A stretch of DNA of 64,000 bases from Pseudonocardia abyssalis. GTDB lineage: Bacteria > Actinomycetota > Actinomycetes > Mycobacteriales > Pseudonocardiaceae. The notes below the pieces were generated by a model. It saw only the letters and a list, made by a program, of their open reading frames with translations. It was not told where the DNA came from and did not search any database. Below are positions 33,195-54,345 of this stretch, one piece after another. The stretch lies in assembly GCF_019263705.2 (NCBI RefSeq), contig NZ_JADQDK010000001.1, forward strand, positions 1,860,001 to 1,924,000, given 5' to 3'. Position numbers and translations under genes: made by a program. Each line of letters starts with the position of its first letter. The first letter of the stretch is position 1.

Positions 33195-35237
33195 TCACAG
33201 CAGGGTCAGCTGCTCAGCCTCCGCGGCGTGCACGGCGGCCCGCTCCGACTCGACCGGACCGGGCGCACCCCGCACCACCCCCTGCGACGCCGCGAGACCG
33301 TGGCGGCGCAGCAGCGGCACGACGCGGGCGCCCAGCGCCCGCCGGTACTCCGCGTCGACGTAGGCGCCGCGGCGGTAGAGCCGGGCGTAGGGCTCGACGA
33401 GTCGCGGGTACTCCCGCGCCAGCCAGGCCAGGAACCAGTCACGGGTGCCCGGACGCAGGTGCAGGGCCATGACGCTCACCCCGGTGGCGCCGGCCGCGGC
33501 GATGCGGCCGAACAGGGCGTCGAGGGCGTCGTCGGAGTCGGTGAGCAGCGGCAGCACCGGTGCGACCATGACCCCGCAGCCCATCCCGGCGTCGGCGATG
33601 CGGCGGACCAGGTCGAGACGGGCCCCGGGCGACGGCGTGCCGGGTTCGAGCCGGGTCTGCAGACCGCGGTCGAGCAGGGCGATCGAGACGCCGAGCCCGA
33701 CCGGGACGTCGCGGGCAGCGGCCGCCAGCCGGGGCAGGTCGCGGGTGAGCACCGTGCCCTTCGTCAGCAACGAGAACGGGGTGCCCGACCGCGCCAGCGC
33801 GTCGATCACGCCCGGCATCAGCCGGTAGCGCCCTTCTGCGCGCTGGTAGGGGTCGGTGTTGGTGCCCATCGCGACCGGTTCACGGGCCCAGCTCGGGCGG
33901 CGCAGCTCACGGTCGAGCACCCGGGCGACGTTGACCTTGACGACGATCTGGGAGTCGAAATCGGCTCCCGGGTCGAGATCGAGGTAGGTGTGGGTGCCGC
34001 GGGCGAAGCAGTTGTGGCTGACGACGCCCTCGGCCACGAAGTCGCCCGTGCCGGTGGTGATGTCGTACATGGCCACGGTGCGGCCGGTGGGCTCCACCGC
34101 GACGACCTCCGCGGCCACCCCGACCGGCGCGCCGGACAGGTCCCGGCGCCGTCCCACGGCGGGCCCGGTGAGCTGCAGGAACCGCACGTAGGCCGCCGTG
34201 CCGCCGGTGAGCCGGACGATCCGTTCGCCGCGGTCGGGGGTCTCCATCACGAAGCCGAACCCCATCCGGTGCAGCGCCCCGGCGACCCGCCCGACCACCT
34301 CCTCGTCGGCGTGCCGCACCCGCAGCTCGCCGTGTGCGACGGCACCCCGGGCGTCGACGACCCCGGCCAGGAAGCCGGCGCACCAGTCGTCGCCCGGGCT
34401 CTCCGGCCAGCGGACGACCTCGGCGACCGGTGCGATCCCGGCGCCCGGCCGGGCGGGGCGGGGCACCGGCGGCGCGATGCGGCCGTCGACCGCTCCCCCG
34501 ACGGCGACCGGCACCGGGACCTCCCGGCCGATCTCCGCGAGGTAGTGGTGCGCCCGACCGAGGGCCTCCAGCTCCAGGTGGGCCGAGGGGAAGCAGCGGT
34601 CGGGCTCGGCCGGGGTGGGACCGTCGGCGCGGACCAGCCCGGACAGGTAGCCCCGCCGGTAACCGGGCGTCGGTGCCGCGGTGCGCCCGGCGAACGGGCC
34701 GGGGCCGAGCAGCGCGCTCCCGGCGCGGAGACGCGGGCGGCGCCCGGACCGGCACCAGCCGCCGGTGACGTGGCGCCAGCCGGAGTCGGTGAGGAAGCGG
34801 TGCTCCCCGCTCGCGACGATCTCGGTGCCGCCGGACAGGCGCAGGCGCACCGATGGCTTGACCGTGGACCAGTGCGCCCGGACGGTCGTGCGGACGTAGC
34901 GCCGGCATCCGTCCACCTGCTCCGTGCCGACCACGGCGTCGCCGACACGCAGGTCGGCGATCGGGCGCGTGGAGCCGTCGGCCATGAGCACCCGGGTGGG
35001 CCCGGCGAGGCAGTAGACGCAGGCGTGGGAGCAGCCGCGGTACGGGTTGACCGTCCAGCGGAACGGAACCGGCGATGTGCCGGGCACGCGGTTGAGCGCG
35101 GAGCGCGCCTCCACCTCGTGGAACACCGCGCCGGCGAACTCCGGCGTGCGCACCGAGCGCAACAGGCCGCGCAGGCCCGGCAGAGCCGCCTCCGCACCGA
35201 CGCCCTCGTCCAGGACCTGCTGCCCGCTCCACCGCAT
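33195..35237 (-). CDS. Intein-containing Rv2578c-family radical SAM protein
   Basis: Precursor of 680 residues: N-extein 1-75, intein 76-409, C-extein 410-680, giving a spliced protein of about 346 residues, the size of Rv2578c. The radical SAM cluster motif CxxxCxxC is NPYRGCSHACVY joined to CFARGTHTYL, and the intein lies exactly before the third cysteine. The C-extein has MGTNTDPYQRAEGRYRLM and LLTKGTVLTRDLP, typical of the spore-photoproduct-lyase-like group. Its reaction is unknown. A perfect LexA box ends nine bases upstream of the ATG, so it should be induced by DNA damage. Confidence 0.93.
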   Translation of the reverse strand: MRWSGQQVLDEGVGAEAALPGLRGLLRSVRTPEFAGAVFHEVEARSALNRVPGTSPVPFRWTVNPYRGCSHACVYCLAGPTRVLMADGSTRPIADLRVGDAVVGTEQVDGCRRYVRTTVRAHWSTVKPSVRLRLSGGTEIVASGEHRFLTDSGWRHVTGGWCRSGRRPRLRAGSALLGPGPFAGRTAAPTPGYRRGYLSGLVRADGPTPAEPDRCFPSAHLELEALGRAHHYLAEIGREVPVPVAVGGAVDGRIAPPVPRPARPGAGIAPVAEVVRWPESPGDDWCAGFLAGVVDARGAVAHGELRVRHADEEVVGRVAGALHRMGFGFVMETPDRGERIVRLTGGTAAYVRFLQLTGPAVGRRRDLSGAPVGVAAEVVAVEPTGRTVAMYDITTGTGDFVAEGVVSHNCFARGTHTYLDLDPGADFDSQIVVKVNVARVLDRELRRPSWAREPVAMGTNTDPYQRAEGRYRLMPGVIDALARSGTPFSLLTKGTVLTRDLPRLAAAARDVPVGLGVSIALLDRGLQTRLEPGTPSPGARLDLVRRIADAGMGCGVMVAPVLPLLTDSDDALDALFGRIAAAGATGVSVMALHLRPGTRDWFLAWLAREYPRLVEPYARLYRRGAYVDAEYRRALGARVVPLLRRHGLAASQGVVRGAPGPVESERAAVHAAEAEQLTLL
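34011..35012 (-). other. Intein with LAGLIDADG endonuclease remnant
   Basis: 334 residues from Cys1 (CLAGPTRVLMADGS, block A) to the terminal His-Asn (GVVSHN, block G), followed by Cys+1 of the host. Block B carries SGEHRFLTDSGW and block F reads VAMYDITTGTGDFVAEG. Between them lie two LAGLIDADG-like helices: YLSGLVRADG (intein residues 122-131), which keeps its acidic residue, and FLAGVVDARG (214-223), in which the expected Asp/Glu before Gly is Arg. Splicing residues look intact; the homing endonuclease is probably inactive. Confidence 0.9.
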
Positions 35238-35245
35238 GGCGTCAT

Positions 35246-35261
35246 TCGAACACACGTTCGA
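35246..35261. promoter_or_regulatory. SOS box (LexA site), perfect
   Basis: TCGAACACACGTTCGA matches the mycobacterial/actinobacterial LexA consensus TCGAAC-N4-GTTCGA at every fixed position, and the symmetry extends one base further on each side (35245-35262). It lies nine bases upstream of the radical SAM start and about 60 bases ahead of divergent gntK. Rv2578c has a LexA site in M. tuberculosis as I recall. Confidence 0.93.
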
Positions 35262-35320
35262 ACTCGCGGCAAGCGGGTTCTCCTCCAGCGGTTGTCGGTG
35301 CCGTGGGGCACTCTGCCCCC

Positions 35321-54329: not shown

Positions 54330-54345
54330 GCGAACACCTGTTCGA
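54330..54345. promoter_or_regulatory. SOS box (LexA site) upstream of ruvC
   Basis: On the minus strand TCGAACAGGTGTTCGC matches TCGAAC-N4-GTTCGA with one mismatch at the last base. It lies 15 bases before the ruvC start. ruvC is a known LexA target in mycobacteria, which supports the call. The divergent methyltransferase gene at 54501 is about 155 bases away. Confidence 0.85.

Follow-up and report, generated by a model that had tools for sequence, protein, structure and literature searches.

A 64,000-nucleotide stretch of the Pseudonocardia abyssalis genome (contig NZ_JADQDK010000001.1, positions 1,860,001 to 1,924,000; "the window" below means this whole stretch) contains a gene for a radical S-adenosylmethionine (SAM) protein of the Rv2578c family that is interrupted by an intein and preceded by a LexA (SOS) box (Table 1). 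The score of the protein for the NCBIfam profile NF038136 ("intein-containing Rv2578c family radical SAM protein") exceeds the cut-off of 700 bits, with a match that spans residues 1–648, and the score for the plain family profile NF038135 is 508 bits against a cut-off of 430, so that both curated Rv2578c thresholds are passed. The host genome is 6.3 Mb in size and 99% complete. The closest gene among named records, from which near-identical records may be omitted, is that of P. hydrocarbonoxydans (L039), with 85% identity over the best segment.

Table 1. Positions of the gene, the parts of its product and the predicted control elements in the window
Feature	Position	Strand	Remarks
Gene for intein-containing Rv2578c-family radical SAM protein	33195..35237	-	680 amino acids, ATG start; NF038136, 792 bits
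N-extein	35013..35237	-	Residues 1–75; cluster-motif Cys69 (C-7) and Cys73 (C-3)
Intein	34011..35012	-	Residues 76–409, 334 amino acids; class 1 residues Cys1, block B SxxH, penultimate His, terminal Asn
C-extein	33198..34010	-	Residues 410–680; Cys+1 = Cys410 = third cluster cysteine; remainder of radical SAM domain
First LAGLIDADG acid	34623..34625	-	Intein Asp130, kept
Second LAGLIDADG acid	34347..34349	-	Replaced by intein Arg222
LexA (SOS) box	35246..35261	.	TCGAACGTGTGTTCGA, perfect palindromic match
Predicted -35 element	35267..35272	-	TTGCCG, 11 bases before box start; place kept in many relatives
Predicted -10 element	35244..35249	-	TCGAAT, 17 base pairs after -35 element; overlaps 3' end of LexA box

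The intein lies directly before the third cysteine of the CxxxCxxC motif, exactly where a first-pass annotation, made by a model from the sequence alone, had placed it. Joining of the exteins gives CSHAC-VY-C, i.e., the C-x3-C-x2-C radical SAM motif formed by C69, C73, and C410. The earlier claim that active enzyme appears only after splicing is nearly forced by where the intein inserts. The companion claim, that the iron-sulfur site is assembled only after splicing, goes beyond the sequence: the unspliced precursor also reads CSHACVYC, with intein Cys1 (Cys76 of the precursor) in the third place of a C-x3-C-x2-C motif, and a cluster or metal could in principle be bound before splicing.

The intein carries all class 1 residues and is predicted to be a splicing-competent class 1 intein. 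Its homing endonuclease is probably inactive, because the second LAGLIDADG acid is lost. A comparison of the whole precursor with solved structures by sequence gave no match at an E value of 0.01; the nearest solved intein by sequence is the Mycobacterium tuberculosis RecA intein (PI-MtuI), a weak match with an E value of 0.006. The M. tuberculosis RecA intein likewise interrupts an SOS-controlled DNA-damage gene; its host is a recombinase, whereas the host here is an iron-sulfur enzyme.

The LexA box and the predicted promoter

On the gene strand, the box occupies positions 35261 to 35246, with 8 bases between it and the ATG. The first-pass annotation was correct in reporting a perfect box upstream of the gene and wrong in giving the spacing as nine bases. 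Perfect boxes are rare: there are 7 in the 6.3-Mb genome, compared to 0 for the pattern read backwards. The other six perfect boxes adjoin, respectively, a gene for imuA' (NF058630), a gene for an error-prone DNA polymerase (a 497-amino-acid piece with 554 bits to NF004225, below the full-length cut-off), dnaB (TIGR00665; box at L005:1501-1516, starting 85 bases upstream of the first in-frame ATG), a gene for an AlkB-type 2-oxoglutarate-Fe(II) oxygenase (PF13532), a gene for a DUF222 protein, and two opposed frames, one of them GNAT-like. The same genome contains both lexA and recA, with a one-mismatch box upstream of recA and two two-mismatch boxes upstream of lexA; the lexA boxes alone are not significant (with up to 3 mismatches allowed, the locus has 3 matches versus 1.4 expected).

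The start codon lies 6 bases beyond the predicted -10 element. Together with the 17-base-pair spacer, these positions place the transcription start at or adjoining the start codon; a leaderless mRNA is thus predicted, with LexA covering the -10 element and the spacer. Conservation among relatives (surveyed below) argues for the same layout. In 151 of 156 non-duplicate genes with a box near -24, the start codon lies 23–25 bases after the box start; T occupies the first and last -10 positions in 96% of these 156 genes; and a Shine-Dalgarno-like tetramer is present in only 1. In 40% of them a TTGAC-like element precedes the box by 11 bases and in 15% by 12; at each of the other 25 offsets tried it occurs in at most 1%. 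Scanning of the window for a strict sigma-70 consensus promoter found none, and such a promoter was rejected.

Published work connects radical SAM genes with the SOS response. In Streptomyces venezuelae, the radical SAM gene vnz_31145, which has been compared to photoproduct repair enzymes, is reported to have a LexA site in chromatin immunoprecipitation sequencing, to be induced 20-fold by mitomycin C, and to have a box at -61 (PMC9380542). This gene resembles ours as a radical SAM gene under LexA; its orthology to Rv2578c could not be established, since the 14-base S. venezuelae box had no match at 3 mismatches in 36 Streptomyces-like loci picked by protein motif. According to a comparative study, the core Gram-positive SOS regulon includes a radical SAM protein (PMC7739468), and a passage on M. 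tuberculosis lists a RecA-dependent "DNA repair photolyase" among mitomycin C-induced genes and leaves the gene unnamed (PMC8151990). SOS control of such genes and the presence of an intein in the Rv2578c family are thus each already known. NF038136 describes the same family in its intein-containing form and is silent on LexA control, promoter layout, and splicing conditions; in the open-licence literature, we found no paper that joins SOS control and intein for this family.

Box and intein among relatives

To survey relatives, we combined two sets of loci. The class sample comprises 149 listed genes besides that of the window, from a search of 394 genomes (177 matched, 158 above the cut-off). 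The named set comprises 80 loci, the best-matching among at least 589 confirmed relatives; it is nearest to the query and therefore over-represents inteins. With the window, the total is 230 genes, of which 226 were parsed (220 distinct proteins; L077, L091, L103, and L114 unparsed). Because the parse demanded both the cysteine motif and an Asn-Cys junction, only the block B His and the penultimate His are free tests of intein catalysis.

The box is widespread. At up to two mismatches, it is present in 174 of 208 homologue start regions (-250 to +30), whereas 51 shuffled palindromes averaged 1.5 and reached at most 9 of these regions. By the same mismatch limit within 150 bases upstream, it precedes 27/29 intein genes and 88/119 intein-free genes of the class sample, and 61/62 intein genes and 11/11 intein-free genes of the named set (these counts omit 4 of the 226 genes, all intein-bearing, that have no usable start). 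Boxes at -28 to -21 precede 25/29 and 75/119 genes of the class sample and 51/62 and 10/11 genes of the named set, in the same order. With duplicates removed, a box with up to two mismatches is found for 83/86 intein genes and 99/130 intein-free genes. The class sample has 31 intein-free genes without such a box, and 25 of them are Streptomyces-like, a label inferred from a protein motif.

Inteins are present in 96 of the 226 parsed genes (30/149 in the class sample, 65 of the 76 parsed genes of the named set, and that of the window) and all share one site. Their lengths are 143–458 amino acids, and the unusually long 458-amino-acid intein, at this same site, is that of Pseudonocardia sulfidoxydans (L079). 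Cys1, the block B His, the His-Asn pair, and Cys+1 are kept in 96/96 intein rows (90 distinct), and C-7 and C-3 in 226/226 parsed genes, a motif that the parse demands and a count to which the 4 unparsed genes do not belong. On a C-extein tree (FastTree, 219 rows, 76 of 216 inner branches weak), presence and absence of the intein need at least 26 changes, 13 of them forced by well-supported branches, and full, mini, and absent states need 31. Endonuclease-free mini-inteins of 143–166 amino acids persist over whole clades. Of 58 full-length inteins (57 distinct), 23 keep both LAGLIDADG acids, and the second acid is lost in the other 9/9 compared Pseudonocardia full-length inteins as well as here. 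Intein-free relatives occur within Pseudonocardia too (L093; others judged by length).

This patchy pattern agrees with the known cycle in which an intein invades, its endonuclease decays, and the intein is lost, rather than with a fixed regulatory part of the gene; the intein seems to be a resident mobile element, a passenger that must splice before the enzyme works. Evolution of box and intein as a pair was rejected, since the box is widespread without the intein. Because the box is present in intein-free genes and stays while the intein turns over, LexA control is independent of the intein; it probably predates it, and SOS control looks ancestral. The first-pass annotation had suggested a survey of Rv2578c homologues for co-occurrence of the two features; across the family the two separate, with no coupling.

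Interpretation and alternatives

Taken together, the gene is very probably a LexA-repressed SOS gene encoding an Rv2578c radical SAM enzyme and hosting a mobile class 1 intein at the codon for the third cluster cysteine. LexA control, as the first-pass annotation had read it, is strongly supported by the conserved box, by the genome's own SOS genes, and by the published radical SAM genes in SOS regulons. In the rest state, LexA would lie over the spacer and the -10 region, with transcription beginning at the start codon or immediately beside it. DNA damage would remove LexA, giving the leaderless mRNA and then the 680-amino-acid precursor; the intein would excise itself by means of Cys1, the His-Asn pair, and Cys+1, restoring C-x3-C-x2-C; and the restored motif would make a [4Fe-4S] cluster and SAM chemistry possible, putatively in DNA repair. 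SOS control would be the ancestral functional layer. The intein would be a selfish resident whose homing endonuclease has decayed; it would persist because the enzyme stays functional only if the intein is lost precisely or goes on splicing. In vivo, splicing may simply be fast and constitutive.

Several observations weigh against this account. A clear box or core is absent from 10 of 216 genes, among them three with an intein, although five of the ten have a candidate with 3 or 4 mismatches at exactly -24. A TTGAC-like -35 element is missing from the expected place in 45% of the 156 genes, and the strict sigma-70 scan was empty because the -10 element TCGAAT has no A at the second position. 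In 25 of 35 Streptomyces-like class genes, a diverged GGGAAC-N4-GTTCTA lies 44–59 bases upstream (two more have it further off), and many Streptomyces-like genes have a Shine-Dalgarno-like AGGAGG (e.g., loci L009–L036 and others), such that the promoter layout seems to have been rebuilt in this branch. Finally, whole-clade persistence of mini-inteins would also fit a benefit to the host.

The first-pass annotation envisaged two gates in series, transcription and splicing, the latter perhaps sensing oxidative damage. Its observation of box and insertion site was borne out, and its interpretation is supported only in part. "Two gates" as a regulatory design is unsupported: intein-free genes have the box too, and gain or loss of the intein leaves the box in place. 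In a redox-gated form of the idea, SOS would induce the precursor and the intein would have been recruited as a sensor, with a disulfide between Cys-3 and Cys1, or a metal or cluster at C-7, C-3, and C1, delaying splicing until reducing conditions permit a new cluster; we consider this unlikely. In its favour, the Cys-3/Cys1 pair (Cys73 and Cys76 of the precursor) is present with exactly this geometry here and in all 96 intein rows, and endonuclease-free mini-inteins are maintained across whole clades. The closest precedent is the MoaA intein of Pyrococcus abyssi, whose host, MoaA, is also a radical SAM enzyme. In that intein, a disulfide between an N-extein cysteine, given as Cys-3 in PMC3922620, and Cys1 is reported in two reviews to block splicing under oxidation (PMC10663303, PMC3922620). 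Oxidants are also reported to inhibit a mycobacterial DnaB intein reversibly (PMC6195587). The P. abyssi intein has the same Cys-3 and Cys1 geometry as the intein here; it differs in having another enzyme as host, an archaeal organism, and no LexA control, and in that the disulfide is reported there whereas the cysteine pair here is known from sequence. The likeness drawn here is that of the cysteine pair. By this analogy, the expected effect of oxidation would be to hold splicing back, with release on reduction, and not activation by damage. Damage might then fill the cell with precursor in a hold-and-release valve, oxidation or a metal or cluster on the C-7, C-3, and Cys1 thiols blocking splicing and the oxygen-labile enzyme being freed only once reducing, iron-replete conditions return; we regard such behaviour as doubtful. 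C-3 is required by the enzyme's own cluster motif and is equally fixed in intein-free relatives, so that its conservation is no proof of selection for sensing. Frequent loss and gain of the intein while the SOS box stays, and the existence of intein-free relatives even within Pseudonocardia, also speak against recruitment as a sensor.

SOS timing could instead serve the intein itself: its endonuclease would be made at a time of RecA induction and active recombination, and the cut that it makes would further strengthen the SOS response, which would help account for the success of inteins in this family's gene. The 23 inteins with both LAGLIDADG acids, the patchy distribution, and the LexA-type host promoter in most of these genes are consistent with such homing. 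The window intein has lost the second acid and so would probably not profit now, boxes are weak in some members with intact endonuclease motifs (L219, L224, L229), and inteins are found in many genes outside SOS control. We judge SOS-timed homing to be quite improbable.

More improbable still is a reading in which the intein is irrelevant and the gene encodes a true repair enzyme of the spore photoproduct lyase type, one that reverses thymine photoproducts. The predicted fold best matches spore photoproduct lyase (PDB 4fhf and kin) at about 16% identity, and the kinship proposed in the first-pass annotation holds for this fold and a weak profile match and no further. In spore photoproduct lyase, an additional cysteine has to act as the hydrogen donor, and C140 mutants exist. 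The Rv2578c family has no fourth invariant cysteine: across 130 aligned intein-free sequences only the three cluster cysteines are invariant, and the next-best cysteine columns are filled in 103/130 and 49/130 (residues not aligned to spore photoproduct lyase). To our knowledge, the hosts of the family are not endospore formers. A 2026 report gives a root-mean-square deviation above 4 Å to Bacillus subtilis SplB and urges caution, and describes a Streptomyces orthologue inactivated by a prophage in one strain, from which its authors conclude that there is no significant cost to fitness (PMC12924846).

On the preferred reading, an SOS gene hosting a mobile intein, the family offers a natural experiment: one SOS-controlled iron-sulfur enzyme, with one insertion site, exists in full-intein, mini-intein, and intein-free versions among close relatives, even inside one genus. 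This is a clean set in which to examine inteins at a cluster cysteine for redox sensing. In addition, a LexA box over the -10 element of a leaderless gene is a precise, testable promoter model for a little-studied actinobacterial SOS gene.

Gene neighbourhood and rearranged loci

Clustering of flanking frames by similarity, in which clusters were not scanned for function, revealed no conserved functional neighbourhood. A direct search, over short flanks, found aspS near the gene in 58 of the 229 loci fetched and gluconokinase near it in 8. In L082 and L093, both from Pseudonocardia, the orientation of the gene is reversed relative to aspS and gluconokinase. The two are adjacent on the C-extein tree, one with a mini-intein and the other without an intein, and a local inversion or a reinsertion with loss of the intein may have been involved.

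In two of the unparsed loci, non-intein DNA precedes the C-extein (L103:2850-3060, Amycolatopsis anabasis; L114:1800-2007, a metagenome-assembled genome of Actinophytocola). This DNA shares, in both, the end GTAAGTGTGTG.GCTTG.GCT.., which abuts the codon for the third cysteine; a search of the junction against Rfam gave nothing credible. This DNA is probably an integrated mobile element at the same conserved site, comparable to the attB site of the Samy prophage in a Streptomyces family member.

Elsewhere in the window, a one-mismatch LexA box at positions 54330-54345 lies 14 bases before ruvC-ruvA, which is likely a second SOS unit in the same window.
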